NCBI RefSeq assembly: GCF_003258365.1
Contig: NZ_QHKM01000001.1
Coordinates: 496,001 to 560,000, forward strand
Direction of reading: 5' to 3'
DNA: 64,000 bases
From: Hymenobacter edaphi
Lineage (GTDB): Bacteria > Bacteroidota > Bacteroidia > Cytophagales > Hymenobacteraceae
The position numbers were made by a program, and so were the translations under genes. The first letter of the stretch is position 1. Each line of letters starts with the position of its first letter. Below are positions 570-18,760 of this stretch, in pieces. The notes beneath the pieces are model-generated. The model was not told the DNA's origin. It made no database searches and saw only the letters and a list, made by a program, of their open reading frames with translations.

Positions 570-1280
570 CTACCCGATGTGGCGCACCAGCATAAACGCC
601 TCGGCAAACGGCTGGCCGATAACCACGCCCCAGCGCTGAGCCAGGATGCGCAGGGCCTCCGGGGAGCGGGGGTGCGGGTACGGCCGCTTCTCAAACTCGT
701 AAGCCTCCATGCCGCTAATCTTGGCCTGCACGTCGTCCTCCGTGACGGCCAGAAACACGTTCGGCAGAAACGGATTCGGGTAGCTGGCCGCCTGCCATTC
801 GGTGCTGGAGGGGGTCTCGCAGGCCAGGATGGTGCGCATCGGCTCGCCCGGCACGGGGCGGCTGCCCGTTACCACGGCCTCGAAGGTGCGGCGGTGGTCG
901 ATGTTGGTGTCGCCGCCGTGGTGGGTGAAGATGTAGTCGGGCTGAAACTGCTCCTTTTCCTGCTCGAACACCTTCACCAGATCCAGCAAATCCACCGAGT
1001 CGAAGCGGTTGTCGGCAAAATCGTAGATGCCGGTGGAGCCGTAGCCGATGGCCGCCGCTGCCCGCTCGATGTTCGAGCGGTGCACGCGCAGCTCCTCGGC
1101 CCACTTTTCCGGGTCGCGCACTTCCGAGCGGGAAGTAATACCCTCGCCCAGGATGACGGCCCGGGCCGTGCAGCCGTGGCGGTGCACGAGGCGGTGAATG
1201 GTGGCGCCCAAACCCAGCAATTCGTCGTCGGGGTGGGCTACCACGACTAGGACTTTCTTCCCTTCGAAATCAAACGGCAT
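570..1280 (-). CDS. PIG-L (LmbE) family deacetylase
   Basis: This 236-residue protein belongs to the PIG-L/LmbE family of zinc-dependent N-deacetylases, which remove acetyl groups from GlcNAc-type substrates. The hallmark AHPDDE motif is at residues 15-20. The second metal and active-site region is HHGGDTNIDH at 120-129. Length is usual for the family. The start overlaps the end of the upstream acyltransferase gene by 11 nt, which suggests translational coupling. In a pseudaminic acid locus, a deacetylase coupled to an acyltransferase suggests exchange of an N-acetyl group for another acyl group on a sugar. That substrate is inferred; only the family is seen directly. Confidence 0.88.
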   Translation of the reverse strand: MPFDFEGKKVLVVVAHPDDELLGLGATIHRLVHRHGCTARAVILGEGITSRSEVRDPEKWAEELRVHRSNIERAAAAIGYGSTGIYDFADNRFDSVDLLDLVKVFEQEKEQFQPDYIFTHHGGDTNIDHRRTFEAVVTGSRPVPGEPMRTILACETPSSTEWQAASYPNPFLPNVFLAVTEDDVQAKISGMEAYEFEKRPYPHPRSPEALRILAQRWGVVIGQPFAEAFMLVRHIG

Positions 1281-2208
1281 CGGGCGAAACGGCTAGCAGA
1301 CGGCGGTATTCCTCGGGCAGTACCGACGAGAACGGGCGGCCGGTGTAAAACTTGATGCCCCGGCGGCGCAGGAAGTCACGGAAATCCTCCTCGACTTCGC
1401 CGAAGGCCCCGGCGGCTTGCATAGTGGTGAGGTCGAACACCGCCGCGTTGCAGTGAATGCGCTGGCTGTCGGCGTCGAAGCGCAGCTGCGCGCGGAGCTG
1501 CTTGTACTCGGCCAGCTCCTGGTAGTCGGCCAGCACGCGCTGCACCAGCTGGTCGTTGCGCTGCGCATCGTGGCTGGGGTACACGTTTTCGCGCAGAATC
1601 TTTACCGGGATGCCACCGGCCAGGCAGCCGTCGGGCAGGTCCTTGTTGATGAGCGAGTTGGTGCCGATAACCACGTTGTTGCCGATGCGGCGGTTGGGCA
1701 GCACCGTCGACTTGGCGGGCAGCCACACCCGGTTGCCGATGCTCACCGGCCCGAAATCGGCCGGGAAGCCCTCCAGAATGGGCAGGTAGGAGCCGTGCGT
1801 CCACACGGCCACGTCCTCGCCGATGCCCACGTACTCCCCGATGTCGATGTGGTGGTTGACGTTCAGCGTGATGCGGGCGCAGATCATGGAGTAGCTCCCC
1901 ACGGTCAGGTGGGCATCCGGGCTGAACTTGCCGCCGTGCCCGACCACCACGTTCGAGTCCCAGTACACGTAGCGGCCCACTTTCACGGTGCGCGCCGTCA
2001 CGTTGTTCTGGTTGCCGAAGATGGTCAGCTCCTCAATTTCCAGCCGCTGGCTGACCAGGAACGCGTTGCCCGCCCCAATGCTCACGTTGTCGCCGATGAT
2101 GCACTCCGAGGCCCGGATCGTGGTGTTCGGCCCGATGCGGAAGTTCGCCCCGATGCTCAGGCGGTCGGCAATGATGTAGCTGCCGTTATCGAATTTGCGG
2201 ATTTCCAT
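1270..2208 (-). CDS. Left-handed beta-helix (hexapeptide repeat) acyltransferase
   Basis: The N-terminal two thirds (about residues 10-210) consist of hexapeptide repeats of the kind that build a left-handed beta-helix, as in LpxA, WbbJ and DapH-type O- or N-acyltransferases (for example IGANFRIGPNTTIRA, IGDNVSIGAG, IGNNVVIGTNS). A roughly 100-residue C-terminal helical region of unknown function follows. The chosen ATG at 2208 begins MEIRKFDNGSYI. Open frame continues further upstream, but it runs through an inverted-repeat element and is not believable as protein. The gene overlaps the PIG-L gene by 11 nt. Acceptor and donor are unknown; a nonulosonate or its precursor is a reasonable guess from context. 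Confidence 0.85.
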   Translation of the reverse strand: MEIRKFDNGSYIIADRLSIGANFRIGPNTTIRASECIIGDNVSIGAGNAFLVSQRLEIEELTIFGNQNNVTARTVKVGRYVYWDSNVVVGHGGKFSPDAHLTVGSYSMICARITLNVNHHIDIGEYVGIGEDVAVWTHGSYLPILEGFPADFGPVSIGNRVWLPAKSTVLPNRRIGNNVVIGTNSLINKDLPDGCLAGGIPVKILRENVYPSHDAQRNDQLVQRVLADYQELAEYKQLRAQLRFDADSQRIHCNAAVFDLTTMQAAGAFGEVEEDFRDFLRRRGIKFYTGRPFSSVLPEEYRRLLAVSPDAV

Positions 2209-2210
2209 AG

Positions 2211-2389
2211 ACCTCACCCCCCGGCCCCCTCTCCTTGGGGAGAGGAGGAGCCTGACGATTGGCGTGGGGGTGGTTTTCGTCAGTGAATGACTTGCAATAG
2301 TAAACAGAAGAATCAGCCCGATAGCGCAGAAACCATTCCTGGTCGTCAGGCTCCCCCTCTCCCTAAGAAGAGGGGGCCGGGGGGGAGGT
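2211..2389. mobile_element. MITE-like inverted-repeat element filling the pseI/acyltransferase gap
   Basis: Imperfect terminal inverted repeats of about 48 bp (2211-2259 and 2342-2389) flank about 82 bp of unique sequence. Each arm has a C-rich outer part (CCGGCCCCCTCT) and an inner GAGCCTGACGA part, and each contains a smaller hairpin. No transposase is encoded. The element starts 3 nt before the acyltransferase start codon and ends 1 nt from the pseI stop codon, so it makes up the whole spacer. Confidence 0.72.
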
Positions 2390-2390
2390 T

Positions 2391-3440
2391 CTACAACAGG
2401 TCCCAGCTGAGCGCGGTGCCGCGGCGCACGGCCTGCCGCACCGGCCGGCCAAGCACCTGCTCCAGCAGGTGCGGTGGCAGGCCGTGGCCGGGCCGGATAA
2501 CGCGCACATTCTGGCGCGTCAGTACTTCGCCCGCGGCCACGTCCTCCACCACGTAGAGGGAGCGGCGGAAGGCCAGGGACTTCCGCTCGGCCTCGGTGGG
2601 GCCGTACTGCACGGTGCCCAGGGCCTGCCAGGCCTGCCGGCACTCCTGTACGAGGCGGGCCATTTCGTCGGGCTCCATCGAGAAGGACGAGTCGGGGCCG
2701 CCGTCGGCGCGGCGCAGGGTCAGGTGCTTCTCGATGACGGCGGCGCCGAGCACGGTGGCGGCCACGGCTACTCCCGTGCCCATGGTGTGGTCGGAGAGGC
2801 CCACGTGGCAGCCGAGCATCTGGCGCAGGTGCGGAATGGTGGCCAGGTTGGTGTTGTGCGGCAGGGCGGGGTAGGTGCTGGTGCACTTGAGCAGAATCAC
2901 TTGCTCGTTGCCCTCGGCCCGCACCGCGGCCACCATGCGCTCCAGGTCGGCCAAATCGGCCATGCCGGTGCTGATGATGACCGGCTTGCCGGTGCGGGCG
3001 GCGTGGCGGATCAGCTCGGGCCAGTTGTTTTCGAAGGAGGCAATCTTGTAGGCCGGGCAGCCCACGGATTCCAGAAAATCAATGGCCTCGGTACCGAAGG
3101 GCGAGCTGAAGGCCACCATGCCGTGCTCCTGGGCGCGGGCGAAAATGGCCGCGTGCCACTCGTAGGGCGTGTAGTTGGTGGTATACAGCTCGTAGAGCGA
3201 CTGGCCTTCCCAGTCCTGGTTGGCCCCGCGCACGATGAAGTCCGGCTCGCGGCTGTTCAAGGTGAGCATGTCCGGGGTGCTGGTCTGAATCTTCAAACCC
3301 TGGCAGCCCGCGGCGGCGGCGGCATCCACAATTTCCAGAGCCTTTTCCAGGCTCTGGCCGTGGTTGCCCGACATTTCGGCGATGATGAACGGCAGGTGCC
3401 CCGCGCCGATGCGGTAGTCGCCGATGAGTATTTCCTGCAT
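2391..3440 (-). CDS. pseI: Pseudaminic acid synthase (PseI)
   Basis: A NeuB-family protein of 349 residues, the usual PseI length. It condenses phosphoenolpyruvate with 2,4-diacetamido-2,4,6-trideoxy-L-altrose to give pseudaminic acid. The NeuB signature starts near residue 20 (AEMSGNHG). The TIM barrel continues through PFGTEAIDFLE, STGMADLADLE and GLSDHTMG. The C-terminal SAF/antifreeze-like domain contains SLYVVEDVAAGE and the PGHGLPP turn. The start at MQEILIGDYRIG fits the family; the longer frame upstream overlaps the preceding gene and is rejected. It begins 10 nt after the pseGH stop, in an operon. The set of pathway neighbours supports PseI over sialic or legionaminic acid synthase. 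Confidence 0.92.
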   Translation of the reverse strand: MQEILIGDYRIGAGHLPFIIAEMSGNHGQSLEKALEIVDAAAAAGCQGLKIQTSTPDMLTLNSREPDFIVRGANQDWEGQSLYELYTTNYTPYEWHAAIFARAQEHGMVAFSSPFGTEAIDFLESVGCPAYKIASFENNWPELIRHAARTGKPVIISTGMADLADLERMVAAVRAEGNEQVILLKCTSTYPALPHNTNLATIPHLRQMLGCHVGLSDHTMGTGVAVAATVLGAAVIEKHLTLRRADGGPDSSFSMEPDEMARLVQECRQAWQALGTVQYGPTEAERKSLAFRRSLYVVEDVAAGEVLTRQNVRVIRPGHGLPPHLLEQVLGRPVRQAVRRGTALSWDLL

Positions 3441-3450
3441 AGAAGCGCAA

Positions 3451-5034
3451 TCAAAGGGGCCGCCCAAACGCGGCGGCCGTCCGCAAAAATACGTCGTAGG
3501 GCTGACCGTGCAGCCACGCGGCCGGCTGCCGCTGAAAACCCAGCCGCTCAAACACCCGCGCCGAGGCCTGGTTCTGCGGTTTCACCTGACCGACAACGGT
3601 CCAGTCGCCCGCCCGATCCTGCCGCAGCTGCCGCAGCGCCTGGTGCAGAAGAGCCGTACCCAGGCCACGCCCACGCCAGGCCGCATCCACCGAGTAATCA
3701 ATGAGGCCGGGCGCCGCAGGGCGTTCGGCCTCGAACTCAATGCGCACCTGCCCGACGGGCGTGCCGTCCTGCTCCAGCACGTACAGGTAAGCGTCGGCGT
3801 CGGCGAGGCGGCGCGCAAACCAGCCCCGGTGCCCTTCCCATTCGATGGGCTCGGTCTGCACCGCGTTCTGGCGCACGGCCGGGTCGTTGGCCCAGTCGAA
3901 GTACAGGCGGGCATCGTCGGCGGTGGCGCGGCGAGTGGTGAGGCCGTCGGTGGCAGCCGGTGCAGAACGGGCGGCGGGCGTAACCACAGCGCCTTGCTCA
4001 GCTGGCGGCTCAGCCGATACCAGCTCGGCAAAAGCCTGGCGCAGGCGCTCCGCCACGCGGCCATCGAAATGCCGGCGCTGGGCCTGACGCATGCGGTCGG
4101 CCACGCGGGCTGCTTCGCCGGAGGTCAGCACGTTGGCGGCCGAGTGGTAGGGCAGGGCCAGGCCCTGTTCGCGCAAAAACCGGTCGATGCCGCGCTGGTT
4201 GTCGGCCAGGGGCTGGGTGAACAGCAGGCCGCCGCCGGCCGCGCAGTACTCGTAGCTGACGGTGCTGGGGGCGCACACGGCGGCCCCGCAAAGCTGCATC
4301 AGCGCCACCATGTCGGCCGCGGCAAGGTTGCGGTGCAGCAGCAGGCGCGGCTGGTCGGCGGCCCATTGCTGCAAGGTGTCCCAGCCCTGGTAGGCACTGC
4401 CCACCACGGCGTGTACCTGCCGCACCGGAGCCAGGGCCAGCAGGGCTTCGGCCACGCGCTGGGTTTGCTGCGCCGGGTCGGCGCCGCCCAGGCAGATGAG
4501 GATGGTATCGGGCGCGGCGGCCGGGCGCTCAGCCGCCGTGGCTGCCGCAGCCATGTAGGCCGGACGCAGCGGGGCGTAGGCCGGGCCGCTCAGCAGCCGG
4601 GCGCCGGGCTGGCGCAGCTCGTAGTCGGCCGCCAATACGCCCCCGGCGGGATTGATAACCAGATCGGCCGCCGAGGGGAAGCTGTGCAGGTCGTCGAGGC
4701 AGACGAGGCGGGCCACGTGCGGGCGCACTTCCTGCTGATAGCTGTACTCGAAGCCGTAGCCATCAAGAATCAGAATATCATGTGGTTGTAATACGTGCTG
4801 TGCTAACCAGGCTGGTTCGCCCGCGGCCGGCTGCGGGGTCATGTCCACCACCTCGTCCACGGCCGCGGTCAGCAGTTGCTGCAGCTCCGCGGAGGGCTCC
4901 TGGATGACGAATACGGTGCGAAAATCCGGCCCGAGCATATCGGCCAGGGCCAGCAGGCGCATCACGTGGCCCAGGCCGATACGCGGGTTGCCGTCGGCGC
5001 GGAGCACCAGGCGGGGAAGGGCAGAGCGGCTCAT
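3451..5034 (-). CDS. pseG: Bifunctional PseG UDP-sugar hydrolase / PseH-like GNAT N-acetyltransferase
   Basis: A 527-residue fusion. Residues 1 to about 335 are PseG, the GT-B-like hydrolase that releases UDP from UDP-2,4-diacetamido-2,4,6-trideoxy-beta-L-altropyranose. The nucleotide-binding loop DGNPRIGLGHVMR (14-26) carries the His matching the catalytic His of known PseG. After an Ala/Pro-rich linker (about 336-362) comes a GNAT domain (about 363-520). Its acetyl-CoA motif A is WRGRGLGTAL, and the substrate part is RRATADDARLYFDWANDPAVR, as in PseH. PseH acetylates the 4-amino group in the step just before PseG, so consecutive enzymes are joined. The start overlaps the upstream cytidylyltransferase stop by 4 nt (ATGA). 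Confidence 0.9.
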   Translation of the reverse strand: MSRSALPRLVLRADGNPRIGLGHVMRLLALADMLGPDFRTVFVIQEPSAELQQLLTAAVDEVVDMTPQPAAGEPAWLAQHVLQPHDILILDGYGFEYSYQQEVRPHVARLVCLDDLHSFPSAADLVINPAGGVLAADYELRQPGARLLSGPAYAPLRPAYMAAAATAAERPAAAPDTILICLGGADPAQQTQRVAEALLALAPVRQVHAVVGSAYQGWDTLQQWAADQPRLLLHRNLAAADMVALMQLCGAAVCAPSTVSYEYCAAGGGLLFTQPLADNQRGIDRFLREQGLALPYHSAANVLTSGEAARVADRMRQAQRRHFDGRVAERLRQAFAELVSAEPPAEQGAVVTPAARSAPAATDGLTTRRATADDARLYFDWANDPAVRQNAVQTEPIEWEGHRGWFARRLADADAYLYVLEQDGTPVGQVRIEFEAERPAAPGLIDYSVDAAWRGRGLGTALLHQALRQLRQDRAGDWTVVGQVKPQNQASARVFERLGFQRQPAAWLHGQPYDVFLRTAAAFGRPL

Positions 5035-5768
5035 ACGCGTACCTGTTGGTTGTCGTGGTTGATGTGCGGCAGCCAGGGCTGCGCCGCCAGCAGCGCCCCC
5101 ACCTCGGCCAGTCCAAAGCCGGCCGGCAGGGTGGTGAACAGCAGGTGCAGCAGGGCGTAGTCGCTGGGGTAATCCAGGGTCAGGCGCAGGCTGGCCGGGG
5201 CGCCCGGGGCCGTCAGCGGCAGCGTCTGCAGCCGGAACTGCTCGGGGTGGCGGCGCAGGTAGGGCGTCACGTGTTCCCGCTCCTCGGGCAGCCGGGCTTG
5301 GGCCGCGGCGCGCTCCAGAGCAGCCCGACTGATGATTTCCAGATTGGTGCCCAGGGGCAGGCCGGTCGTGAGCGTGTAGTCGGCGCCGGCGGCCAGGTGC
5401 CCGCCCACGGCTTCGTCGAGGTAGTGCGGGTCGAGGGCGGGGTTGTCGCCGGTGAGCCGCACGATGACGTCGAGCCCGTGGGCGGCGGCGGCCTGCTGGA
5501 AGCGGCCCAGCACATCGGCCTCGTCGCCGCGAAACACGGGTACGCCCAGCGCCGCGGCCGCAGTGGCCAGCACGTCGTCGGCGGGCAGGGTGGAGGTAGC
5601 TACCACGGTGGTGTGCAGCGTGGCGGCGCGGCCGGCGCGGGCCAGCACCTGGGCCAGCACCGAGGTCGGGCCGCCCAGCGGCAGCGGCAGCAGCGCCTTG
5701 CCCGGCAGCCGCGTCGAGCCCATGCGCGCCTGCACCAGCGCCCCGAGGCGCGTTACTTGATGGTCCAT
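5031..5768 (-). CDS. SpsF-type nucleotidyltransferase, probable CMP-pseudaminic acid synthase (PseF role)
   Basis: A 245-residue protein of the CTP_transf_3 (KdsB/NeuA/SpsF) superfamily. The nucleotide-binding signature QARMGSTRLPGK is at residues 13-24. DVIVRLTGDNPALDP and REHVTPYLRR are later family motifs. This signature is that of SpsF-like proteins rather than the PARxGSKRIPxKN of classical PseF and NeuA. No other cytidylyltransferase is visible in the locus, so activation of pseudaminic acid with CTP is the likely job. It overlaps the upstream SDR gene by 16 nt and the downstream pseG by 4 nt, which ties it firmly into the pathway operon. The family is seen; the substrate is inferred. 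Confidence 0.82.
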   Translation of the reverse strand: MDHQVTRLGALVQARMGSTRLPGKALLPLPLGGPTSVLAQVLARAGRAATLHTTVVATSTLPADDVLATAAAALGVPVFRGDEADVLGRFQQAAAAHGLDVIVRLTGDNPALDPHYLDEAVGGHLAAGADYTLTTGLPLGTNLEIISRAALERAAAQARLPEEREHVTPYLRRHPEQFRLQTLPLTAPGAPASLRLTLDYPSDYALLHLLFTTLPAGFGLAEVGALLAAQPWLPHINHDNQQVRV

Positions 5769-6544
5769 CCGCCGTCGACTACGAGGTTGTGGCCCGTCAC
5801 GAAATCCGAGGCCCGCGAAGCCAGAAACACGAACGCCCCGGCCAGGTCCCCAGGCTGCCCGATACGGCCCAGCGGAATGCGCCGGGTGAGCTGGTCGACG
5901 AATTCGGCGCTCTGCTGCTGCACCGCCGGGCTGGGGAAGGCGCCGGGCGTGACGCAGTTGACCTGGATGTTTTCGGGGCCGAGAAAGGAGGCGAAGTATT
6001 TGGTGAGCTGAATCACGCCGGCCTTGGCCGCGCCGTAGTGCGGCGGATTGGTAAACTGCGGCGTGGCCGCGTAGGCGCTGAAATCGGGGGCCACCACGCC
6101 GTACATCGACGCTACGTTGATGATTTTGCCGCCGCCGCGCCGTCGCAGGTAGGGCAGCGCCTCCCGAATGCAGCGGTAGGTGCTGCCCAGGGAGCCGTCG
6201 AGGCCGAGGGCAAACTCCTCGTCGGTGAGCTGGTCGGGGCGGCTGCCGCGGCTGTAGAAGGCGTTGTTGATGAGCACTGCCGGCAGCCCGTGCTGCGCCT
6301 CCACGGCCGCCAGCGCCGCCTGCACGGAGGCGGTATCGGCCACGTCGCAGGGCTGGAACCGAATGGTGGGTTCCGCCGCGAAGGCCGTTTGGAAAGCCGT
6401 TGCGTCGCGGCCCAGCACCACCACGGTGGCCCCGTGGGCCGCCAGGCCGCGGGCCACGGCCTGGCCCAGGTAGCCGTAGCCGCCGGTGAGCAGCACGAGC
6501 TGGCCGGCGAGGGAAAACAAATCGGTAGGAGGGAATTCAGGCAT
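5753..6544 (-). CDS. SDR family oxidoreductase
   Basis: A classical short-chain dehydrogenase/reductase of 263 residues. The cofactor-binding TGGYGYLG is at residues 20-27. INNA marks the central strand. The catalytic Ser lies in NVASMYG, the YxxxK pair in HYGAAKAG, and a C-terminal TGHNLVVDGGW ending is typical of the family. The chosen ATG at 6544 gives a normal N-terminus; the upstream extension is Arg/Pro-rich and unlike an SDR. It is the first gene of the pseGFI operon and probably acts on a sugar or a sugar modification in the same pathway. Its exact reaction cannot be read from sequence. Confidence 0.85.
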   Translation of the reverse strand: MPEFPPTDLFSLAGQLVLLTGGYGYLGQAVARGLAAHGATVVVLGRDATAFQTAFAAEPTIRFQPCDVADTASVQAALAAVEAQHGLPAVLINNAFYSRGSRPDQLTDEEFALGLDGSLGSTYRCIREALPYLRRRGGGKIINVASMYGVVAPDFSAYAATPQFTNPPHYGAAKAGVIQLTKYFASFLGPENIQVNCVTPGAFPSPAVQQQSAEFVDQLTRRIPLGRIGQPGDLAGAFVFLASRASDFVTGHNLVVDGGWTIK

Positions 6545-6605
6545 GTGAAAAACCGGCGGACCTAGCGAGGGGACGCGTGGCCGCAGCCGGAGCAGCGGGT
6601 GAAAG

Positions 6606-6614
6606 CGCAAAGGT
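6606..6614 (-). promoter_or_regulatory. Candidate -7 element for the SDR-pseF-pseGH-pseI operon
   Basis: On the minus strand the sequence reads ACCTTTGC, close to the Bacteroidota -7 consensus TAnnTTTG, about 62 nt upstream of the SDR start. No clear TTG is seen at the -33 position. It is back to back with the plus-strand element at 6647-6654. Confidence 0.4.
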
Positions 6615-6646
6615 GACGAAATAGCCGAAGCGGTGCCAGATAGACT

Positions 6647-6654
6647 TACCTTTG
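6647..6654 (+). promoter_or_regulatory. Candidate -7 element (TACCTTTG) for the T9SS protein gene
   Basis: TACCTTTG matches the Bacteroidota TAnnTTTG consensus exactly and lies 57 nt before the ATG at 6712. A -33 TTG is not evident at the right spacing. Confidence 0.45.
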
Positions 6655-6711
6655 TTTGCTAGCGTTTATGGTGTCACCATCATTGTTTTATTGAATCTAA
6701 ACCGATTAAGG

Positions 6712-9700
6712 ATGCTCAACAATTACTTACGCCGGCTGCTGCTGCTGTGGCTGACCACGGGCTGGCTCTGCGCAAACGGGCAGGGCTACAACAACAATTG
6801 GTACTTCGGTACGCAGGCGGGCCTGCACTTCAGCGGCGGCAGTCCCAGCCCGCTCACCAACGGGCAGTTTGTTTCCTACGAGGGCTGCGCGTCGATTTCC
6901 AACGGCGCGGGCGTGCTGCAGGCTTACAGCAACGGCATCAACGTCTGGAACCGCAACCACCAGGTGATGCCCAACGGGGCCGGCATGGGCGGGCACGAAT
7001 CGGCTTCGCAGTGCAGCCTGTTTCTGCCCTATCCCGGCGACCCGACCAAGTTCGTGTTCCTGATGGTCGACGCCATCGACAACAACCTGATCTACGGCCT
7101 GCGTTACTCCGTGCTCGACATGACGCTGCAGAGCGGCTTGGGCGACGTGACGGCGACCCGCAACGTACGACTGCCCACGCCCACGCCGAGCGGCAAAGTC
7201 ACGGAAAAGCTCACGGCGGCCCTGCACGCCAACGGCCGGGACTACTGGATTATCGTGAAAGGCTGGCAGAACAACGAGTTCTACAGCTTTCTGCTCAGCC
7301 CCAGCGGCGTGAGCAGCACGCCGGTCGTCAGCGCCGCCGGGCCGGTGCACCAGGGCGGCGGCAGCTTTTTCGGCGCCGGCAACGCGGTGGGCTGCATGCG
7401 CGTGTCGCCCAATGGGCAGTGGCTGGCCCTGGCGCAGCGCGACAACCAGTTTGCCCTGCACAACTTCGATAACGGCACGGGCGTGGTGTCGAACTACGTC
7501 AGCCTGGGCCATTACGGCTACAACTACGGGGTGGAGTTTTCGCCCAACAGCTCCCGTTTGTACTGCTCGGCCAGCCCCGGCGGCAGCATTGGGCAGTACA
7601 ACCTGCAGGCCGGCACGCCGGCGCAGATTGCCGCCTCGCGGGTGAGCATCTACAGCGGCGACATCAGCGGCCTGCAGCGCGGCCCCGACGGCAAGATTTA
7701 CGGCGCGATGCTGTTCAACAACGCCCTCAGCGTCATCAACCACCCCGATGCGCTGGGCGCCGCCTGCAACCTGAGCGTGGGCACCGTGGGGTTGGGCGGC
7801 CGGCAAAGCCAGAACGGGCTGCCCAACTTCCCCAACGCCTTCCCGCGCGTGGTGAACGAGTGGACCGGGGTCGTCAGCACCGCTTACACCGACGCGGCCA
7901 ACTGGAGCGCGGGCTACGTGCCCGGCGCTGCCGACGACGTGACCATCCCGGCCACGGCCGTGCGCATGCCGGTGCTCGGCGCGGCGGCGGCGGCGGCCGG
8001 CTTCACCGTGGCCAGCGGCGCGTCGATGACGGTAGCCAGCGGCGGCGACCTGACCCTGGCCCGCACCCTGACCAACAACGGCACCTTCGGCGGCGACGGC
8101 ACGGTGCGCATGGGCGCCAGCGGCACCACCCAGCTGCTGGGCACGAGCCCGGTGCGCATCGGCAGCCTGGCGGTGGGCGGCAGCCCGCTCAACATCGTGC
8201 AGGACGTGGATGTGCAGACGCCGCTGTTCGTCACGCGGGTGCTGACGCTGGGCGGCAACCTGACCATGAGCGGCGCTGGCTCCCTGACGCTGGTTTCCGA
8301 TGCCAGCGGCACGGCCATGATTGTCAACCAGAACGGGCTGGTACGTGGTACGGCAACTATTCAACGCTGGATTGATCCGAGTCTGAATCCCGGCCTGGGC
8401 TATCGGCACCTGGCGGCACCGGTAACGGGCAGCACGCTGGCCGACCTGTCGACGACTACTTTTACGCCTACCTTCAATTCGGCCTACAACACCAGCCCGT
8501 ATCCCGGCTCGGTAACGCCGTTCCCCACGGTGTTTGCCTACAACCACGAACTGCTCAATACCAGCGTTGCCGCGGGCATGAGCGACTTTGACAAAGGCTG
8601 GTACTCGCCCAACGGAGCCGCGGCGGTTATGCAAAACGGCGTCGGTTACACCGTGAACATGGCCGGTGGGCAGACGGTCGACTTTGTCGGCCAGCCGTCG
8701 GCTTCCGGCTTTTTCGTGCAATTCCGGCGGCGTGGCAGCTCCCCTGAATCCGGCTGGATGCTCTGGGGCAACCCATTCCCGTCCCCAATCGACTGGGACG
8801 TGCTCCACACCAACGGCAACGCAGGCGGGGTTGCCTCGGTCGACAATGCCGTGTACGTCTACAAGTCCAGCGGGCAATACACGGGCGCCTACGCCAGCTA
8901 CGTCAACGGCGTCGGCGCCAACGGCGGCACCAACATCATCCCGCTGGGCCAGGCCTTCTTCGTGCGCGCCAACACCGCGGGCTCCGATGCCGTGCGCAAC
9001 AACTTCTTTTTTAGCAGCACGGCCCGGGTAACTACGTATCAGAACCCGCCCCTGCAGCGCGGCCGGGAAATCCGCCCGTTGATTGCCCTGGAGCTGCGCA
9101 CGGCTGCCGGCCAGCGCGACGAAGCCGTGCTGTACGCCGAAGCCGGCGCCACGGCCGGGTTTGATGCGGCGTTCGACGCGGCCAAGGTTATGGCCGGCGG
9201 CAGCACGCTGAGCCTGCCCGCGGGCGCCGGGCAGGAGCTGTCCATCAGCGGCCTGCCCGCGCTGGGCACCACGGCGCAGACGATTCCGCTGACGGTGCGC
9301 GTGGCCTCGACCGGCACTTACTCGCTCACGGCCACCGGGCTGCTGAACCTGCCCGCCGGCTGCCGCGTGCACCTGCTCGATGCCCAGACCGGCACCAGCA
9401 CCCCGCTCACCGCCCGGGCCGCATACTCGTTCAGCGCCGCGGCCGGTACGCTGGCCGGGCGTTTCGCCCTGGTTATCGACCCGGCCCGCCCGACGGCTGC
9501 CACCGGGGCCCTGGCCCGGCAGGTAAGCGTGTACCCCAATCCGGCCCACGGCCAGCTGTGGGTGGCGCTGCCGGCCGGCTACGCCCGGCAGGCCGTGCGC
9601 GTGACGGTGCTGAACCTGCTCGGCCAGACCGTGCTGACGCAGGAGCTGCCCGCCGGCCGGGCCGCCGCTGCGGCCCTGACGCTGCCGGCTACCCTGGCCC

Positions 9701-9768: not shown

Positions 9769-9776
9769 CCCGGACG

Positions 9777-9836
9777 GCATGAAACGGCCAACGGCCGGCC
9801 ATTCCGCGGAATGACCGGCCGTTGGCCGTTTCATGC
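9777..9836. terminator. Long hairpin between convergent genes
   Basis: A 60-nt inverted repeat has 22-bp perfect outer arms (GCATGAAACGGCC...) around a nearly palindromic 16-nt centre with one mismatch. It separates the convergent T9SS and aldo/keto reductase genes. There is no T-run, so termination is inferred from position. Confidence 0.6.
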
Positions 9837-9846
9837 GGCAAGCCCG

Positions 9847-10749: not shown

Positions 10750-11918
10750 TGGCCCACAAACTCGCGCACGCAGTCGATGACGTACTGCTGCTCCTCGTCG
10801 CGGAGGCTGGGAAACATGGGCAAGCTCAGGCAGCGGGCGTAGTAGGCCTCGGCCGCCGGAAAGTCGCCGGGCTGCCAGCCCAGCTGCTGGTAGTAGGGCA
10901 TGGTGTGCACCGGGATGTAGTGCACCTGCGCGAAAATCTGCTTGCTGCGCAGAAAGTCGTAGAGCCCGCGCCGGTCCTGTACCTGGATGACGTAGAGGTG
11001 GTAGGCGTGGCCCGCGGCGCCGGCCAGCGGCGTCACGCCCGATACCTCGGCAAAAGCCGCGTCGTACTGCCGGGCCAGCTGCCGGCGGCGGGCCAGGCCC
11101 TCGTCGGCCCGCGCCAGCTGGGTCAGGCCCAGGGCGCAGAGCATGTCGGGCATGCGGTAGTTGTAGCCCAGCTCCTGCATTTCGTAGTACCAGCCGCCCT
11201 CGTCGGGGTGCTGCAGGCGGCCCGGGTCGCGGGTGATGCCGTGGGTGCGCAGCAGCAGCAACTGCTCGTACAGGTCGCGGCGGTTGGTGGTAATCATGCC
11301 GCCTTCACCGGTGGCAATGTGCTTGACGGGGTGAAACGAGAAGATGGCCAGCTCGGCCAGCTGCCCGTTGCCGCAGCGCTGCGCCCGGCCCTCCGCGTCG
11401 GTGAAGAAGCCGCCGGGGGCGTGGCAGGCGTCTTCGATCAGCCAGAGCCCGAACTCGTCGGCCAGCTGCCGGGCCAGCTGCAGATCCACGGGCAGGCCGG
11501 CGAAATCCACCGGAATCAGGCCGTGAAAGTGCCCCCGCGGGTGGCTTTCGAGCAGGCGCCGCACGGCCTGCAGGTCGATCAGGGCCGTGGCGGGGTCGAT
11601 GTCGACGAAGTGCACCTCGCCGCCGCAGTAGCGCACGCAGTTGGCCGAGGCGGCGAAGGTGATGGGCGTGGTGATAACGCGCTGCCCCGGCTGCACGCCC
11701 AGGGCCAGCGCGCACAGGTGCAGGGCCGCCGTGCCGTTGCTCACCGCCACGGCGTACTCCGCGCCGATGTACTGGGCGAAGCGGCGCTCAAACTCGGCCA
11801 CCTGCGGCCCCTGGGTCAGAAAATCGGAGTGCAGCGTGCTGATAACGGCCTGCACGTCGGCGTCGGTGATGTGCTGGCGGCCGTAGGGGATGGGGCGGGT
11901 CGGAGTGAAGGCGGACAT
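10746..11918 (-). CDS. pseC: UDP-4-amino-4,6-dideoxy-N-acetyl-beta-L-altrosamine transaminase (PseC)
   Basis: A DegT/DnrJ/EryC1/StrS aminotransferase of 390 residues. It performs the second step of pseudaminic acid synthesis: PLP-dependent transfer of an amino group from glutamate to C4 of the PseB product. The PLP lysine is Lys199 in SFHPVKHI. SNGTAALHLCA (60-70), EDACHAPGG (162-170) and YNYRMPDM are PseC-like motifs. The start at 11918 (MSAFTPTRPIPYGRQ) matches known PseC N-termini; longer frames upstream are low-complexity. A TATTTTTG element lies at 11927-11934, very close to the start. It overlaps the aldo/keto reductase gene by 4 nt. Confidence 0.93.
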   Translation of the reverse strand: MSAFTPTRPIPYGRQHITDADVQAVISTLHSDFLTQGPQVAEFERRFAQYIGAEYAVAVSNGTAALHLCALALGVQPGQRVITTPITFAASANCVRYCGGEVHFVDIDPATALIDLQAVRRLLESHPRGHFHGLIPVDFAGLPVDLQLARQLADEFGLWLIEDACHAPGGFFTDAEGRAQRCGNGQLAELAIFSFHPVKHIATGEGGMITTNRRDLYEQLLLLRTHGITRDPGRLQHPDEGGWYYEMQELGYNYRMPDMLCALGLTQLARADEGLARRRQLARQYDAAFAEVSGVTPLAGAAGHAYHLYVIQVQDRRGLYDFLRSKQIFAQVHYIPVHTMPYYQQLGWQPGDFPAAEAYYARCLSLPMFPSLRDEEQQYVIDCVREFVGQ

Positions 11919-11926
11919 AGTAACGC

Positions 11927-11934
11927 CAAAAATA
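11927..11934 (-). promoter_or_regulatory. Candidate -7 element (TATTTTTG) for pseC
   Basis: The minus strand matches TAnnTTTG exactly and sits only 9 nt upstream of the pseC ATG. If it is used, the transcript would be leaderless or nearly so. No clear -33 TTG is seen. Confidence 0.35.
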
Positions 11935-12164
11935 CGCGGCGAAAGGCTTGGGCCCAGCCCGGCCGCCGCTAACTTCCGCCGGGTCCCGCACTGGGCGCTT
12001 GGCCGGCGGCCCGCGCAGCGGTGGAATACGGCGCCGGGCTGCGTAATTTTAAGCCCTTGATTACAAGCCGGCCGTGCCGACAGGGCCCGCGGTCGGCCAG
12101 CCGGCGGGCAAGAGTTGCCCAATTCTTGCGGTTGCGGGCCAGACTGTACCTATTTGTCAATTTT

Positions 12165-14114
12165 ATGATCCAATCCTTACGCCGCTGGCTGATACTGGCT
12201 TTGCTGGGTCTGGGGCTGCTGGCCCCCGCCCGGGCGCAGGGCGTCTACGCCCGCTGGGACTTCGGCCAGCGCGCCGGCCTCTACTTCGGCGCCGATTCCG
12301 TGCGCGCCCTCACCGACAGCCAGCTGCAGTCGGAGGAGGCCAGCGCCACCGTCTGCGACGAGCAGGGCGGCCTGCTGTTCTACGGCAACGGCGAGCAGCT
12401 CTGGAACCGCCAGCACCAGCCCATGAGCAACGGTCAGGCCCTGGGCGGCAGCCACCGGGCCGCCCAGGGCTGCGCCATCGTGGCCAAGCCCGGCCAGCCC
12501 GGCCGCTACTACGTCTTCACCCTCGACGCCCTCGAAAACCAGCCCCGCAACGGCCTGCTGCTGGCCGAGGTGGACATGGCGGCGGCCGGCGGGCTGGGAA
12601 GCGTCGTCAGCAAGCGCGGGCGCGTATTGCCCGATACCCTGCTGCAGCGCTTTGGCACCACCGGCATGGCCGAAGAAATGGCCCTGGTGCGCCACGCCAA
12701 CGGCCGCGACTATTGGCTGGTCACGCACCTGTACTACGCCAACGTCTTCGTGAGCGTGCTGCTGCGCGCCGGCGTGGCCCCCGGCAGTCAGTACGTGGTC
12801 AGCGCCGTGGGCCGCACCATCGGCTTCAGCGGGGTCATTCCGTTCGCGGGCGGGGGGAGCATGGCCGTCACGCTCGATGGCCGGCGCCTGGCCTACACCT
12901 ACGCCACCGCCGCCACCGAGCTGCTGAACTTCGACCCGGCCACCGGCCGCCTGAGCAACCCCGTGCGGCTGGAAATTCCGCCCACCGCGCTGCGCACCGA
13001 CATGAACCCCTACCACTACGGCGCCGCTTTTTCGCCCGACGGCCGCTTTCTCTACACGTCGCTGGTGCAGCCCGACTCGCGCGCCGAAATCGACCAGCGC
13101 CCCAACGTGTTCGTGGTGCAGTATTTCCTGCAGCCGGTGGTGACCAGCGTGGCGCAGTCGGGCCTGGTGGTGTACAGCACGCCCCAGTCGCAGCAGCGCG
13201 GGCTGGTCAGCCGCTTCGTGCGCGGCCTGCAGCGCGGCCCCGACGGGCTGATTTACGCCGCCGTCAACAACGGCCGGCGGCTCGACGTCATTCGCCAGCC
13301 CAACCAGCGCGGCGGCCTGTGCGAGTACACCGTCGACGGCCGGCCGCTGGCGGGGCGCGTGGCGCAGCTGAACCTGCCCCTGCTGCCCAACGACGTGTTT
13401 TATCCCTCTTTGCGGCTGGCCTCGCTGCCCTGCCCGGGCCTGACGCGCACGCTCACGGTGAGCGGCACCGCGCTGGGCGTGCTCGGCGACACGCTGCTCT
13501 GGCAGCTCGGCGACGGGCAGGTGCGCCAGACCACCACGGCCTCGCTCACCTACACCTACGCCCCGGGCCAGTACACGGCCACGGTGCAGCTGCTGCGCCA
13601 CCGCCGGCCCCAGGCCACGGCCACGCTTGCCTTCACGGCCGAGCCCGCCCTGCGCGTCCAGCTCGGCCCCGATACTTCGTTGTGCGCCACCAGTGAAGTG
13701 CTGCTGCTCCCCGGCGCGCAGCCCGCCGGCACCACCTACCGCTGGCAAGACGGCAGCACCGCGGCGGCCTTGCGCGTCACCGCGCCGGGCACCTACTGGC
13801 TGGAGCTGCGCACGCCCGCCGGCTGCACCGCCCGCGACACGGTGGTGGTGGGCGGGGAGCCCTGCCGCACGCTGGTGCCCAACGTCATCACACCCAACGG
13901 CGACCGGCAAAACGACGCGTTTGTGCTCAAGGGCATGAACGCGGCCGAGTGGCGCTGCCGCGTCTTCTCGCGCTGGGGCCGTCTCGTGTACCAGGCCGAG
14001 GCCTACGCCAACGACTGGGACGGCGCCGCCCAGCCCGCCGGTACCTACTTCTACGAGCTCATCAACCGGCGCACCGGCCAGCGACTCAAGGGCACGGTGG
14101 AAGTGGTACGCTGA
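12165..14114 (+). CDS. T9SS gliding-motility-type surface protein with CHU_C C-terminal domain
   Basis: A 649-residue secreted protein. ATG 12165 gives a signal peptide of about 24 residues ending APARAQG. Residues about 25-430 repeat the propeller-like region seen in the protein at 6712-9768 (WDFGQRAGLYFG, LWNRQHQPMSNGQALGG, HANGRDYWLV, LQRGPDGLIYAAV). A PKD-like region follows (about 440-490), then an Ig-like part (about 500-560). The C-terminal 85 residues are the gliding motility-associated CHU_C domain (TIGR04131: VPNVITPNGDRQNDAF, FSRWGRLVYQ, WDGAAQPAGTYFYEL), a type B T9SS sorting signal. It is nested between pseC and pseB on the opposite strand. Confidence 0.88.
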   Translation: MIQSLRRWLILALLGLGLLAPARAQGVYARWDFGQRAGLYFGADSVRALTDSQLQSEEASATVCDEQGGLLFYGNGEQLWNRQHQPMSNGQALGGSHRAAQGCAIVAKPGQPGRYYVFTLDALENQPRNGLLLAEVDMAAAGGLGSVVSKRGRVLPDTLLQRFGTTGMAEEMALVRHANGRDYWLVTHLYYANVFVSVLLRAGVAPGSQYVVSAVGRTIGFSGVIPFAGGGSMAVTLDGRRLAYTYATAATELLNFDPATGRLSNPVRLEIPPTALRTDMNPYHYGAAFSPDGRFLYTSLVQPDSRAEIDQRPNVFVVQYFLQPVVTSVAQSGLVVYSTPQSQQRGLVSRFVRGLQRGPDGLIYAAVNNGRRLDVIRQPNQRGGLCEYTVDGRPLAGRVAQLNLPLLPNDVFYPSLRLASLPCPGLTRTLTVSGTALGVLGDTLLWQLGDGQVRQTTTASLTYTYAPGQYTATVQLLRHRRPQATATLAFTAEPALRVQLGPDTSLCATSEVLLLPGAQPAGTTYRWQDGSTAAALRVTAPGTYWLELRTPAGCTARDTVVVGGEPCRTLVPNVITPNGDRQNDAFVLKGMNAAEWRCRVFSRWGRLVYQAEAYANDWDGAAQPAGTYFYELINRRTGQRLKGTVEVVR

Positions 14115-14119
14115 TAACT

Positions 14120-14178
14120 GCCAATCCACGAAAAAAGCCCGGCTGTTCTGCACAGCCGGGCTTTTTTCGTGGATTGGC
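14120..14178. terminator. Bidirectional terminator, perfect 27-bp stem
   Basis: Two perfectly complementary 27-nt arms flank a 5-nt loop (TCTGC). Each arm contains a six-base A or T run next to a G/C-rich top (GCCCGGCTGT), so it can act as an intrinsic terminator in both directions. It lies between the convergent CHU_C gene and pseB. Confidence 0.9.
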
Positions 14179-14188
14179 AAAGCGGCGC

Positions 14189-15367
<1,179 letters not shown>

Positions 15368-15378
15368 GCTAAACCCAG

Positions 15379-17265
15379 ATGGCGCCCGATCTGACTACTG
15401 ACAACTTCCAACTGTCAACTGAAAACCCCGTCAAGCTCATCATCTGGGACCTGGACGACACGTTTTGGCGCGGCACGCTCTCGGAAGGCGAAATCGAAGC
15501 CATTGCCGACAACGTGGAGCTGGTGCGCGCCACGGCGGCCCGCGGCATCATCCACGCCGTGGTCAGCAAAAACGACCTGGCCCCGGCCGAAGCCAAGCTC
15601 CAGGAGCTGGGCGTGCGCGACCTGTTCGTGTTCCTGCGAGTGAGCTGGCAGCCCAAGGGTCCGATCATCAAGCAGCTGCTGGAGGATATGCAGCTGCGCG
15701 CCCCCAACGCGCTGTTCCTCGACGACAACCCCATCAACCGGGCCGAAGCCCTGCACTACAACCCCCGGCTGCAGGTAGCCGACCCCGCCGAGCTGCCGCG
15801 TCTCGCGCCCGCGCTGCTGGCCCTCGGCAAGCCCGACCCCACGTACGCCCGCCTGGAGCAGTACCGCCTCTTGGAGCGCCAGCAGCAGGCCCGCGCCGAC
15901 TACCAGGGCGACAACCTGGCCTTCCTGCGCGACGCCCAGGTGCGGGTGGAGCTGCGCGAGGGCAAAGACGCCGTGTGGCCCGACTTCAACCGCATCGAGG
16001 AGCTGATCAACCGCTCCAACCAGCTGAACTACACCAAGAAGCGCGTGGTGCTGCAGCAGCTGGAAGCCCGCTTGGAGGCCACGCGCCTGCGCTGGGGCAC
16101 CGTGCGCGTGCGCGACCGGTTCGGCGACTACGGCCTGGTGGGTGTGTACGCCCTGAACACCTTCACCAACGAGCTGGAGCAGTTTACCTTCAGCTGCCGC
16201 ATCCTGCACCTGGGCGTGGAGCAATGGACGTACGCGCACCTGGGTTTCCCGAAGCTCGACGTGCAGGGCGACGTGGCCACCCCGCTCAACCAGACCGAGC
16301 AGCCCGACTGGATTACGCTGGAAACCCCGGCCGAAGCCGCGCAGGGCCGCGAAGCCGCCGCCCTGCCGCCGGGTGCCGACAAAGGCCGCCTGCGCATCCT
16401 GCTCAAAGGCGGCTGCGACCTGGGCCAGCTCACGCCCTACCTGCAGACCTACCAGGTCGACGTGACGGAGGACTTCAACTACGTGAACGACCACCAGGTG
16501 CCGGTGCACACCGAGCACACCGAGCTGCTGCGCCTGAGCCACACGCTGCCCGCCACCGAGCAGCACCGCCTGGCCGACGCGCTGCCCTTCCTCGACCGCG
16601 AAGCCTTTCAGCCCCGGCTCTGGCAGCCCGGCCCCGGCTACGACGCGGTGGTCTACAGTCCGCTGATGGACTACACCCAGGACCTGTACCGCGAAAACGC
16701 CACCGGCCTGCTGATTCCCTTCGGCGGCTACCAGGACCTGACCCAGGCGGACCCCGCCGAACAGGCCCGGCGCTACGCCCAGCGCAAGTTTCGCGGCATG
16801 GATGAAGCCTGGCTGCGCCGCTTCCGCGAGGAATTCAGCTACGCCGGCCCGCTCACGCCCGAGCGGTTTCAGGAGAATCTGCAGTGGCTGCGCCAGCAGC
16901 TGCCCGCCGCGGTGCCGCTCATCCTGCTCACCGGCGCCGAAATAGAGGTGCCCGGCTCGCCCGAACCCGGGGCCGTACAGCGCCATCAGCAAATGAACGC
17001 CGCCCTGCTCGACTTCGCCGCCCGCACGCCCAACGTGCTGGTGGTCGACGTGCGCGAGGTGGTGCGCACCCGCGCCGACGTGACCAACAACCTGCGCCAC
17101 TACCAGCGGCCTTTATACAAAGCCCTGGCCGAGAAGCTGGCCGCCGAGCTGGCGCAGTGGCAGGGTCGGCAGCTGAAACGCTCCACTGTGGGGCAGCTGC
17201 GGGCCGCCCTGCTGGACGCTCTGCCCAAGCCCGTGCGCAAGGTGTGGGACCGGCTGACGCAGTAG
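15379..17265 (+). CDS. FkbH-like protein (HAD-IIIC family)
   Basis: A 628-residue protein with an N-terminal HAD-IIIC/FkbH domain. Motif I is WDLDDTFW (Asp24 and Asp26), the Ser/Thr motif is probably VVSKND, and the acidic motif is LFLDDNPINR. FkbH enzymes dephosphorylate 1,3-bisphosphoglycerate and load the glyceryl group onto an acyl carrier protein. A middle GNAT-like segment (NRIEELINRSNQLNYTKKR, then RFGDYGLVGVYAL) is usual in this family. The C-terminal half (about 340-620) is less clear and may be SGNH-like. The first 16 residues appear to be encoded by an intergenic repeat. ATG 15379 is the most upstream start because an in-frame TAA precedes it. A role in acyl modification of the glycan is inferred. 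Confidence 0.8.
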   Translation: MAPDLTTDNFQLSTENPVKLIIWDLDDTFWRGTLSEGEIEAIADNVELVRATAARGIIHAVVSKNDLAPAEAKLQELGVRDLFVFLRVSWQPKGPIIKQLLEDMQLRAPNALFLDDNPINRAEALHYNPRLQVADPAELPRLAPALLALGKPDPTYARLEQYRLLERQQQARADYQGDNLAFLRDAQVRVELREGKDAVWPDFNRIEELINRSNQLNYTKKRVVLQQLEARLEATRLRWGTVRVRDRFGDYGLVGVYALNTFTNELEQFTFSCRILHLGVEQWTYAHLGFPKLDVQGDVATPLNQTEQPDWITLETPAEAAQGREAAALPPGADKGRLRILLKGGCDLGQLTPYLQTYQVDVTEDFNYVNDHQVPVHTEHTELLRLSHTLPATEQHRLADALPFLDREAFQPRLWQPGPGYDAVVYSPLMDYTQDLYRENATGLLIPFGGYQDLTQADPAEQARRYAQRKFRGMDEAWLRRFREEFSYAGPLTPERFQENLQWLRQQLPAAVPLILLTGAEIEVPGSPEPGAVQRHQQMNAALLDFAARTPNVLVVDVREVVRTRADVTNNLRHYQRPLYKALAEKLAAELAQWQGRQLKRSTVGQLRAALLDALPKPVRKVWDRLTQ

Positions 17266-17283
17266 CGCGCAGCGGACAGTGGT

Positions 17284-17383
17284 TGTAGCGCGAACGTTTA
17301 GTTCGCGTATCGTAGCTGACGTCCGTCCGATTGCCGTTTGACGGCTTCGTTCAAGATTACGCGAACGGAAAGTTCGCGCTACA
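17284..17383. repeat. Paired GCGAAC-N5-GTTCGC palindromes, MITE-like
   Basis: Two copies of the palindrome, one starting TGTAGCGCGAAC and the other ending GTTCGCGCTACA, sit in inverted orientation about 55 bp apart, giving a 100-bp element with outer inverted ends. It is in the intergenic space between the FkbH-like and GT4 genes, both of which end here. The same unit occurs at 449-472. Confidence 0.72.
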
Positions 17384-17385
17384 GC

Positions 17386-18690
17386 CTATCTCCGAATCAG
17401 CTCCACCAGCCGCTCGGTCAGGCCGCGGCGGGAGTAGCGGGCGCTGCTGAAGGCGGGCAGGTCCTGGTTCGGGTTCTGCTGCCAGCTGGCCACCAGCTGG
17501 TCGAGGTAGGCGCGCATAGCGTCCCGGTCTTCGTAGTCGAAGTTCTGCCCGGCGCTGGTTTCGTCCAGGATGTGGGCCGCGTCGGAGCCGGTGGGGCCGA
17601 TGCAGATGACGGGCTTGTTGGCGGCCAGGTACTCGAACACCTTGCCCGGCAGAATGCCGCGGTTGTGCGGCACATCGGGAATGCCGAGCAGCAGCGCGGT
17701 GCTGCGCAGCATGTAGCCCACGGCCTCGTCGTGCGGCACGAATTCCACCAGCTCGGTGCGCTCCAGCAGGCCCGCATCGGCCAGCTGCTGCGCCACTTCC
17801 TTGGCCACGCGCCCCACGAAGCGCAGGCGCAGCGGCACCTGCGGGTGCCGGACCGCGCAGGCCGCTACTTCCGCCAAGAACGGCCCGACGTGGTACTGCC
17901 CGGTGATGGTGCCCACGTAGGTAAGCAGCAGCGTATCAGCGGGTGGGAGCGAGGGATGCTGAAAATCGGCTTCGTCGTAGCCGTTGGGCAACACCGCGAA
18001 CTTATCCGAGTGCAGCCCGGTGCCCTTGCCCTGCAGCAGCCGGCCCGTGTCGGGGCTGGTGGTAATGACCACGTCGGCGGCTTCCAGCACCTGCCGCTCG
18101 TAGCGCTGATCCAGCCAGCGGGCCACGGCGGTGCGCATCAGGGTCTGGGTGTAGTAGATGTCGGTCCACGGGTCGCGCAGATCGGCCAGCCAGCGCCAGC
18201 CGTAACGCTTTTTCAGGGCCAGGCCGATGAGCTGGGTGGAGTGCGGCGGCGAGGAGGTCAGCACCGCGTCGAACTGCTCGCCGGCGGCCACCAAGGCCGC
18301 TACTTGCTTCAGCACGAAGCTATTCCAGCCCCGGCGCGGGTCGGGCAAAAACACGTTGCCGCGCACGAAGCGCGCCACCCGCTGCGCCACCGAGGGCCGG
18401 CCTTCGTTGGCAAAGCCGCCGTGCGGAATGGGCCGGTTGGTGAGCTTCTGGTAGGCCCCGAACGGCTCCCGCGTGCCCGTGCGCAGCACCCGCACGCCCG
18501 GCGGCACGTCGGCCTCCAGCGAGTAGTCCAGCACCGGATACGCCGCCTGGGCCGGGTCCACGGTGATGACCGTCGGTTCGACGCCCAGCGCGGGCAGGTG
18601 CTTCACCCACTTCAGGCAGCGCTGCACCCCGGCCCCGCCCGAAGGCGGCCAGTAGTAGGTGATGACCAGCAAACGAAGCGGGGCGGGCAC
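17386..18690 (-). CDS. Glycosyltransferase, GT4-like (GT-B fold)
   Basis: A 434-residue GT-B glycosyltransferase. The N-terminal acceptor domain starts with LLVITYYWPPSGGAGVQR, a signature of the GT4-like sugar transferases of Bacteroidota. A characteristic middle motif is LADLRDPWTDIYY. The nucleotide-sugar side carries VLPNGYDEADF and a donor-binding stretch FVPHDEAVGYMLRSTALLLG, followed by GILPGKVFEYLAANKPVI with the conserved Glu. It probably adds a sugar to a lipid-linked glycan at the cytoplasmic membrane. It lies at the edge of the pseudaminic acid locus, divergent from ffh. Donor and acceptor are unknown. Confidence 0.88.
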   Translation of the reverse strand: MPAPLRLLVITYYWPPSGGAGVQRCLKWVKHLPALGVEPTVITVDPAQAAYPVLDYSLEADVPPGVRVLRTGTREPFGAYQKLTNRPIPHGGFANEGRPSVAQRVARFVRGNVFLPDPRRGWNSFVLKQVAALVAAGEQFDAVLTSSPPHSTQLIGLALKKRYGWRWLADLRDPWTDIYYTQTLMRTAVARWLDQRYERQVLEAADVVITTSPDTGRLLQGKGTGLHSDKFAVLPNGYDEADFQHPSLPPADTLLLTYVGTITGQYHVGPFLAEVAACAVRHPQVPLRLRFVGRVAKEVAQQLADAGLLERTELVEFVPHDEAVGYMLRSTALLLGIPDVPHNRGILPGKVFEYLAANKPVICIGPTGSDAAHILDETSAGQNFDYEDRDAMRAYLDQLVASWQQNPNQDLPAFSSARYSRRGLTERLVELIRR

Positions 18691-18760
18691 GGCGGGGTGG
18701 TTTTTAATGTTACGGGAGGGCGAAAGTAAAGCGCAGAACCGGCTTTCATGGTTTTGTGGC

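Follow-up and report, generated by a model that had tools for sequence, protein, structure and literature searches.

Which sugar is made by a pseudaminic acid (Pse) locus that carries five genes beside the core pathway, and do these genes act on it together? The question is raised by a 64,000-nucleotide stretch of Hymenobacter edaphi DNA (the window; positions 496001-560000 of a 1.9 Mb contig, G000:C11, in a 6.04 Mb genome), where core pse genes lie with genes for a PIG-L de-N-acetylase, a beta-helix acyltransferase, a short-chain dehydrogenase/reductase (SDR), an aldo-keto reductase (AKR) and an FkbH-like protein. Acyl groups and stereocentres are where sialic-acid-like sugars chiefly differ, and the enzymes behind some of these differences are not known. 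An initial annotation, whose named genes all lie where it placed them, proposed that the extra genes together exchange an N-acetyl group of the sugar for another acyl, such as a glyceryl-type group. Comparison of relatives instead resolves them into three candidate modification blocks, each separately testable: the PIG-L and beta-helix genes (block 1), the SDR and AKR genes with the cytidylyltransferase gene (block 2) and the FkbH-like gene (block 3). Specifically, PseB, PseC, PseG and PseI score above the cut-offs of their family models, and the extra genes are inherited as three separate blocks, a conclusion that we hold with high confidence. From these genes, it is reasonable to predict a pseudaminic-type sugar with a modified acyl group.

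The separation is seen in the combinations in which the blocks occur. The 39 compared loci were chosen, not drawn at random, and comprise all 17 loci with PIG-L (window included), 15 other FkbH loci and seven with neither; a placeholder stretch (L064) and a locus without pse genes beside PseI (L069) were excluded. Where a locus stretch stops before the gene for the GT4-type glycosyltransferase, FkbH absence was taken from a genome-wide search. All three blocks stand together in two loci, blocks 1 and 3 in seven, blocks 1 and 2 in seven, and blocks 2 and 3 in four; block 1 stands alone in one (G072), block 2 in two and block 3 in 11, and five loci have none. PIG-L and FkbH stand without SDR and AKR in, for example, H. 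perfusus (L073) and H. elongatus (L083), and Hymenobacter sp. H14-R3 (L081) has PIG-L, SDR and AKR with no FkbH in the 2.5 kb covered beyond PseB. With all eight combinations represented, a single pathway shared by the five extra genes seems unlikely.

Domain and family scores were obtained with Pfam and TIGRFAM models, each read against its curated cut-off. Four core proteins of the window, all encoded on the minus strand, exceed their equivalog cut-offs: PseI (2391-3440; TIGR03586, 461.7 bits vs 340.25), PseG (3451-5034; TIGR03590, 179.2 vs 153.55), the aminotransferase PseC (10746-11918; TIGR03588, 467.5 vs 423.5) and the dehydratase PseB (14189-15208; TIGR03589, 521.5 vs 407.75). The core set, initially described as complete, holds for these four but not for PseH. 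The only PseH-like stretch in the locus is a C-terminal GNAT domain fused to PseG, which scores 31.9 bits vs the TIGR03585 cut-off of 93.1, and none of the 10 matching places in the genome passes this cut-off (best 50.3 bits); the domain is best named a PseH-like GNAT. The PseF model has no match in the window, and the cytidylyltransferase belongs instead to the SpsF-like CTP_transf_3 type. The locus would thereby work like a Pse pathway without a canonical PseH. Some relatives carry canonical PseH at the corresponding position (L050, 148.7 bits; L057, 156.1; L063, 152.1) and L049 has a different GNAT there, with no PseH match at E 1e-5; what occupies the PseH position therefore differs from relative to relative. 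In L050 (4222-5235) and L057 (9984-11036), a MaoC-type dehydratase (PF01575) accompanies canonical PseH, a hint that pseudaminic acid may bear a 3-hydroxyacyl group (e.g. hydroxybutyryl) in those loci.

Block 1 contains the PIG-L gene (570-1280, minus strand; PF02585, 70.8 bits vs 28.2) and the gene for the beta-helix (hexapeptide) acyltransferase, which has a conserved C-terminal extension (1270-2208, minus strand; PF00132, 50.9 bits vs 27); as initially noted, the two overlap, by 11 bases. In a survey of 180 genomes of the family, with PseI counted at E 1e-40 and matches ordered by score, PseI was detected in 165. Sixteen of these carry a PseI at 81-100% identity to that of the window (class A), and non-class-A PseI among the matches listed reach at most 60%. 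PIG-L at 80% identity or above is found in exactly the 16 class A genomes, as is the beta-helix gene at 72% or above; G072 has the two at 63% and 56%, respectively, and four more family genomes have PIG-L matches at just 29-32%. Every one of the 16 class A genomes has the pair vs 1 of 149 other PseI genomes (G072), which gives 17 of 180 overall. Residues H91 and H138 of the beta-helix protein, which we take to be catalytic, are invariant in 17 sequences. Beyond the family, a search at E 1e-40 through 395 phylum genomes returned the beta-helix gene in two, both of them family members, and a scan of genome contigs gave 12 confirmed loci, all Hymenobacter; by this gene, the nearest named relative in that scan is Hymenobacter jeollabukensis (96%). 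A bacillithiol role was considered for the PIG-L protein and rejected, with scores for the BshB models of 20.3 bits vs 195.25 (TIGR04000) and 21.8 vs 182.5 (TIGR04001).

Phylogenies connect this pair to particular parts of the pathway. In careful trees, all 17 PIG-L loci lie on one side of a 100/100 branch for the GNAT domain (32 rows) and 16 of 17 form one 100/100 group for PseI (40 rows), whereas PIG-L presence needs three changes on the tree of the PseG half (38 rows). Quick trees of the 39 loci place the PIG-L label with one change on PseI and GNAT, three on PseG and five to nine on seven others. The window and G002 carry a PseG half that clusters with congeneric loci lacking PIG-L (L051-L053) and a GNAT half that clusters with PIG-L loci; the two halves differ in tree position, which puts a recombination point within the fusion gene in the window's lineage. 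The transferred segment comprises GNAT, PseI, the beta-helix gene and PIG-L. Class A and class B PseI are 53-60% identical, and the flanking PseB and PseC are far less divergent over the same loci.

These patterns suggest that PIG-L and the beta-helix enzyme exchange an acyl group of the sugar, which we regard as evenly poised between true and false; that the exchange is located at N5 is put forward more tentatively. N5 is the site that would need a deacetylase, because the N7 acyl is set by a PseH-type step, and the co-moving PseI suggests that the acyl change precedes condensation. The locus is as such a candidate for N5 acyl replacement, which is beyond the reach of a PseH-type step. Several points weigh against this proposal. 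The careful PseI tree needs two changes owing to the divergent PseI of G072, which sits on a long branch of unsure placement (one change suffices in 34% of bootstrap trees), and this PseI lacks the class A signature, matching class A in six and class B in nine of 24 class-fixed columns. The block 1 genes are contiguous, so their linkage could be passive, which is a real alternative, and beta-helix enzymes likewise make O-acyl groups. The contiguity of the genes and the missing class A signature also favor a reading in which the N-acyl groups of the nonulosonate are untouched: the beta-helix enzyme would O-acetylate it, PIG-L would deacetylate another glycan sugar, and PseI and GNAT would hitchhike. 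The solved structures nearest by sequence to the beta-helix protein are, furthermore, mostly O-acetyltransferases. This reading is nevertheless somewhat unlikely, since the block is inherited with just the acyl-setting GNAT half, with the break inside a fused gene, and since the flanking PseB and PseC diverge much less than the two PseI classes do. The predicted structure of the beta-helix protein (pLDDT 63) has no PDB match at E <=0.001, and neither it nor that of the FkbH-like protein (pLDDT 43) is the basis of a fold claim here. No paper tying PIG-L to pseudaminic acid was found in open-licence literature with a search that required several terms at once, which could miss papers that have those two terms alone; among the 15 of 393 matches listed by another search, none seemed relevant.

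Block 2 contains the genes for the SpsF-type cytidylyltransferase (5031-5768; PF02348, CTP_transf_3, 87.5 bits vs 22.6), the SDR (5753-6544; PF13561, adh_short_C2, 169.5 vs 27) and the AKR (9847-10749; PF00248, Aldo_ket_red, 106.6 vs 24), all on the minus strand. All 15 SDR loci among the 39 have the AKR together with a cytidylyltransferase of at least 49% identity, whereas none of the 24 SDR-less loci has the AKR, and their cytidylyltransferase is at 34-43% in 22 and without a match in two. The SDR label needs one change on the cytidylyltransferase tree and three to five on nine others. The catalytic residues look intact: S146, Y170 and K174 of the SDR and D51, Y56, K80 and H111 of the AKR, presumably the catalytic ones, are each invariant in 11 sequences. 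That blocks 1 and 2 are so closely co-inherited with specific genes of the Pse pathway also bears on the simplest product, plain Pse5Ac7Ac, with extra enzymes that are redundant or serve other glycan sugars. The good scores of the core genes suit such an ordinary pseudaminic acid, but the inheritance pattern makes it quite improbable.

The SDR and AKR had initially been left without a known place, and a published domain set now offers one. According to extracts of the source, EpaA (CTP_transf_3 plus Aldo_ket_red) and EpaB (adh_short_C2) of Acinetobacter baumannii prophages convert Pse5Ac7Ac to its 8-epimer, as seen by nuclear magnetic resonance of the capsule (PMC12053666). The same three domains are present in the window with Pse genes, the SDR being EpaB-like and the AKR like that of EpaA; the likeness is at the level of domains, which counts against pressing it far. 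EpaA is also fused and prophage-borne (PMC12053666), whereas the window has three separate genes in a pse locus (cytidylyltransferase at 5031-5768 and AKR at 9847-10749). By this closest published precedent, the cytidylyltransferase, SDR and AKR probably provide CMP activation and C8 inversion, a modification that the initial annotation had missed, and the locus suggests that an 8-epimerization set of the EpaA/EpaB type exists in Bacteroidota too. An SDR at 36-39% was found on seven viral contigs but without an adjoining cytidylyltransferase or AKR match, and plasmids searched for an EpaA/EpaB-like set gave matches to the cytidylyltransferase only.

Block 3 is the FkbH-like gene (15379-17265, plus strand), whose product joins a HAD-IIIC/FkbH domain to a weak GDSL/SGNH-like C-terminus. 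It is called FkbH-like because its TIGR01686 score of 128.3 bits falls under the cut-off of 146.65; relatives of the same architecture score 134.4, 158.1 and 148.3. The gene is present in single copy in 57 of the 180 family genomes and lies 4.9-12.5 kb from PseI on the same contig in all 56 in which the distance is measurable, a count that leaves out G149, whose PseI position is not among the matches listed. FkbH enzymes are HAD-IIIC enzymes that load glyceryl groups from 1,3-bisphosphoglycerate. Residues D24, D26, D115 and D116 of the HAD motifs and the Ser-Cys-Arg motif S272-C273-R274, which we assume to be functional, are invariant in 40 aligned relatives. The C-terminal part matches PF13472 at E 0.0005, with weaker GDSL or SGNH matches in two of three distant relatives; hhalign found no similarity when it was compared with the N-terminal regions of the FkbH proteins L087-L090 (probability 0.1%). 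The FkbH N-terminal domain PF21211 has no match in the protein and is present in the FkbH of a distant Bacteroidota operon (L100, described below). An acyl carrier protein was initially reported as missing from the window, and PF00550 indeed has no match on the whole 1.9 Mb contig; three are found in the genome on other contigs. Carrier-free acyl transfer within a single chain is possible for this protein. The glyceryl idea remains a possible one for FkbH alone, and activation of a three-carbon acyl is a guess that we rate at a little under even.

The distribution of FkbH calls for caution, since it largely follows lineage: its label needs two changes on the flippase tree and four to eight on nine others (quick trees of the 39 loci), and four on a quick Ffh tree vs a shuffled mean of 9.2. 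It also bears on whether blocks 1 and 3 form the joint pathway first proposed, in which the beta-helix enzyme would attach to pseudaminic acid a glyceryl group provided by FkbH, after PIG-L has exposed an amine. All three genes lie within the window, FkbH is present in 9 of the 17 PIG-L/beta-helix genomes (9 of the 16 class A genomes), and over the 180 genomes its association with PIG-L is weakly positive (Fisher p 0.045, ignoring descent). Beta-helix identity to the window is 78-96% in FkbH genomes vs 72-75% in FkbH-less class A genomes, a difference that may be due to lineage. However, FkbH is missing from 8 of the 17 pair genomes, 48 genomes have FkbH without the pair, and the PIG-L label is scattered on the quick FkbH tree (24 loci), with seven changes vs a shuffled mean of 7.5. 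Together with the eight block combinations, this makes a joint glyceryl pathway highly improbable. The expected co-occurrence of extra genes with pse in relatives was borne out for the PIG-L/beta-helix pair, confined but for G072 to one PseI class, and for FkbH within the locus, but FkbH is not tied to the pair.

Taken together, these data are compatible with a model, for which we see an even chance, in which the window represents one of several alleles of a surface-glycan locus with modular build, whose product is a CMP-activated sugar of the pseudaminic family. PseB and PseC would form UDP-4-amino-4,6-dideoxy-AltNAc, and the GNAT domain fused to PseG would acylate N4 (later N7). PIG-L would strip the N-acetyl group that stems from UDP-GlcNAc (later N5), and the beta-helix enzyme would put another acyl there. 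PseG and the specialized PseI would then form the nonulosonate, which the SpsF-type cytidylyltransferase, the SDR and the AKR would activate with CMP and invert at C8 in the manner of EpaA/EpaB. The FkbH-like protein, acting separately, would activate a three-carbon acyl and may use the SGNH-like domain at its C-terminus to hand it on, either to this sugar or to a different residue of the same glycan. The combined product would be a candidate undescribed sugar, an 8-epipseudaminic acid with a swapped N5-acetyl group and a glyceryl-type group from a carrier-free FkbH-SGNH protein, with relatives showing all eight modification combinations; in this full form it is unlikely. A literature search found no nonulosonic acid product reported for any Hymenobacter, which speaks against the model as a whole.

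Further genes frame the locus. A GT4-type glycosyltransferase gene (17386-18693, minus strand; PF13579, 49.4 bits) marks its right edge, and on the left it extends past the window (L002) with genes for a DUF7033 protein, a Wzx-type flippase and a conserved Pfam-less protein, the last of which may, by inference only, be a glycosyltransferase. The minus-strand pse run is broken by two plus-strand genes for proteins with a type IX sorting domain (6712-9768 and 12165-14114). Related genes or fragments of these are present in many compared loci, and the proteins are perhaps glycan targets or hitchhikers.

Outside the family, the relation of FkbH to pse genes becomes looser. At E 1e-15, FkbH is found in 30 of the 395 phylum genomes, three of them inside the family; PseI exceeds its cut-off in three of the other 27 and lies beside FkbH in just one (L100), and in G318 and G454 a sub-cut-off PseI match is found about 25 kb from FkbH on the same contig. 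Full-length relatives (36-39%) of the FkbH type seen in the window occur in three non-family genomes, where none adjoins pse genes. Both counts weigh against the proposed model. Proteins of the window's architecture in L084 (9100-10974) and L086 (8934-10817) are neighbored by polysaccharide genes, of the dTDP-rhamnose type or another, and by no pse genes, a context that suggests a broader role of FkbH-like proteins in glycan acylation. The L100 operon (G538:C88:27000-46500, 3740-13617), in turn, encodes PseB, PseC, a PseG-like protein (138.1 of 153.55 bits), a methyltransferase and PseH (107.3), followed by a methylmalonyl-CoA-epimerase-like protein, FkbH (334.6), an acyl-carrier-like protein (PF00550, 19.1 of 20.8), PseI (505.6), a further gene product and an SpsF-type cytidylyltransferase. 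It is a candidate for (O-methyl)glyceryl pseudaminic acid. The linkage of FkbH to pse genes thus recurs, but across the phylum the window's FkbH type is not bound to Pse loci. A possible further acyl-modified pse locus is seen on an Azospirillum ramasamyi plasmid (L091, 5941-12252), where PseI and an SpsF-type cytidylyltransferase lie by phosphopantetheine-binding proteins, an AMP-binding protein and a ketoacyl-ACP synthase, with flagellin adjoining.

Among known systems, the flagellin locus of Campylobacter jejuni, which we take to contain carrier proteins, links an FkbH-type gene to a three-carbon acyl. Extracts of the source describe such a gene in a locus making pseudaminic acid with this kind of acyl, and strain 12664, in which the fkbH gene cj1302 is a pseudogene, has no dimethylglyceric acid-Pse (PMC7099621). 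The parallel is weakened by strain 12661, which also lacks dimethylglyceric acid sugars but is reported without cj1301, and by the fact that the gene proven needed by mutation is cj1295, not fkbH (PMC7099621). As far as these extracts go, cj1295 alone has a mutation-shown role (PMC7099621); the FkbH-like protein of the window differs in having no acyl carrier protein on its contig. The nab cluster of Vibrionaceae and Moritella resembles block 2, with an SpsF-type cytidylyltransferase, an AKR and a dehydrogenase within a pse cluster; in the extracted description, the first two are fused, and the gene after PseH is methylmalonyl-CoA-epimerase-like (PMC7371886), an arrangement shared with L100 and not with the window. 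Tannerella forsythia, another member of the Bacteroidota, has clusters that begin with a Wzx-like flippase and makes an N-glyceroyl pseudaminic acid (PMC6120980, PMC6388019). It differs in that its acetamidino group is putatively assigned to an AnsB-like protein, and the extracts mention no PIG-L/beta-helix pair (PMC6120980, PMC6388019). Its O-glycan carries Pse5Am7Gra, for which the glyceroyl gene is called elusive (PMC6120980). Together, the locus described here and L100 present FkbH enzymes as candidates for this elusive glyceroyl step, as far as the extracts describe it (PMC6120980).

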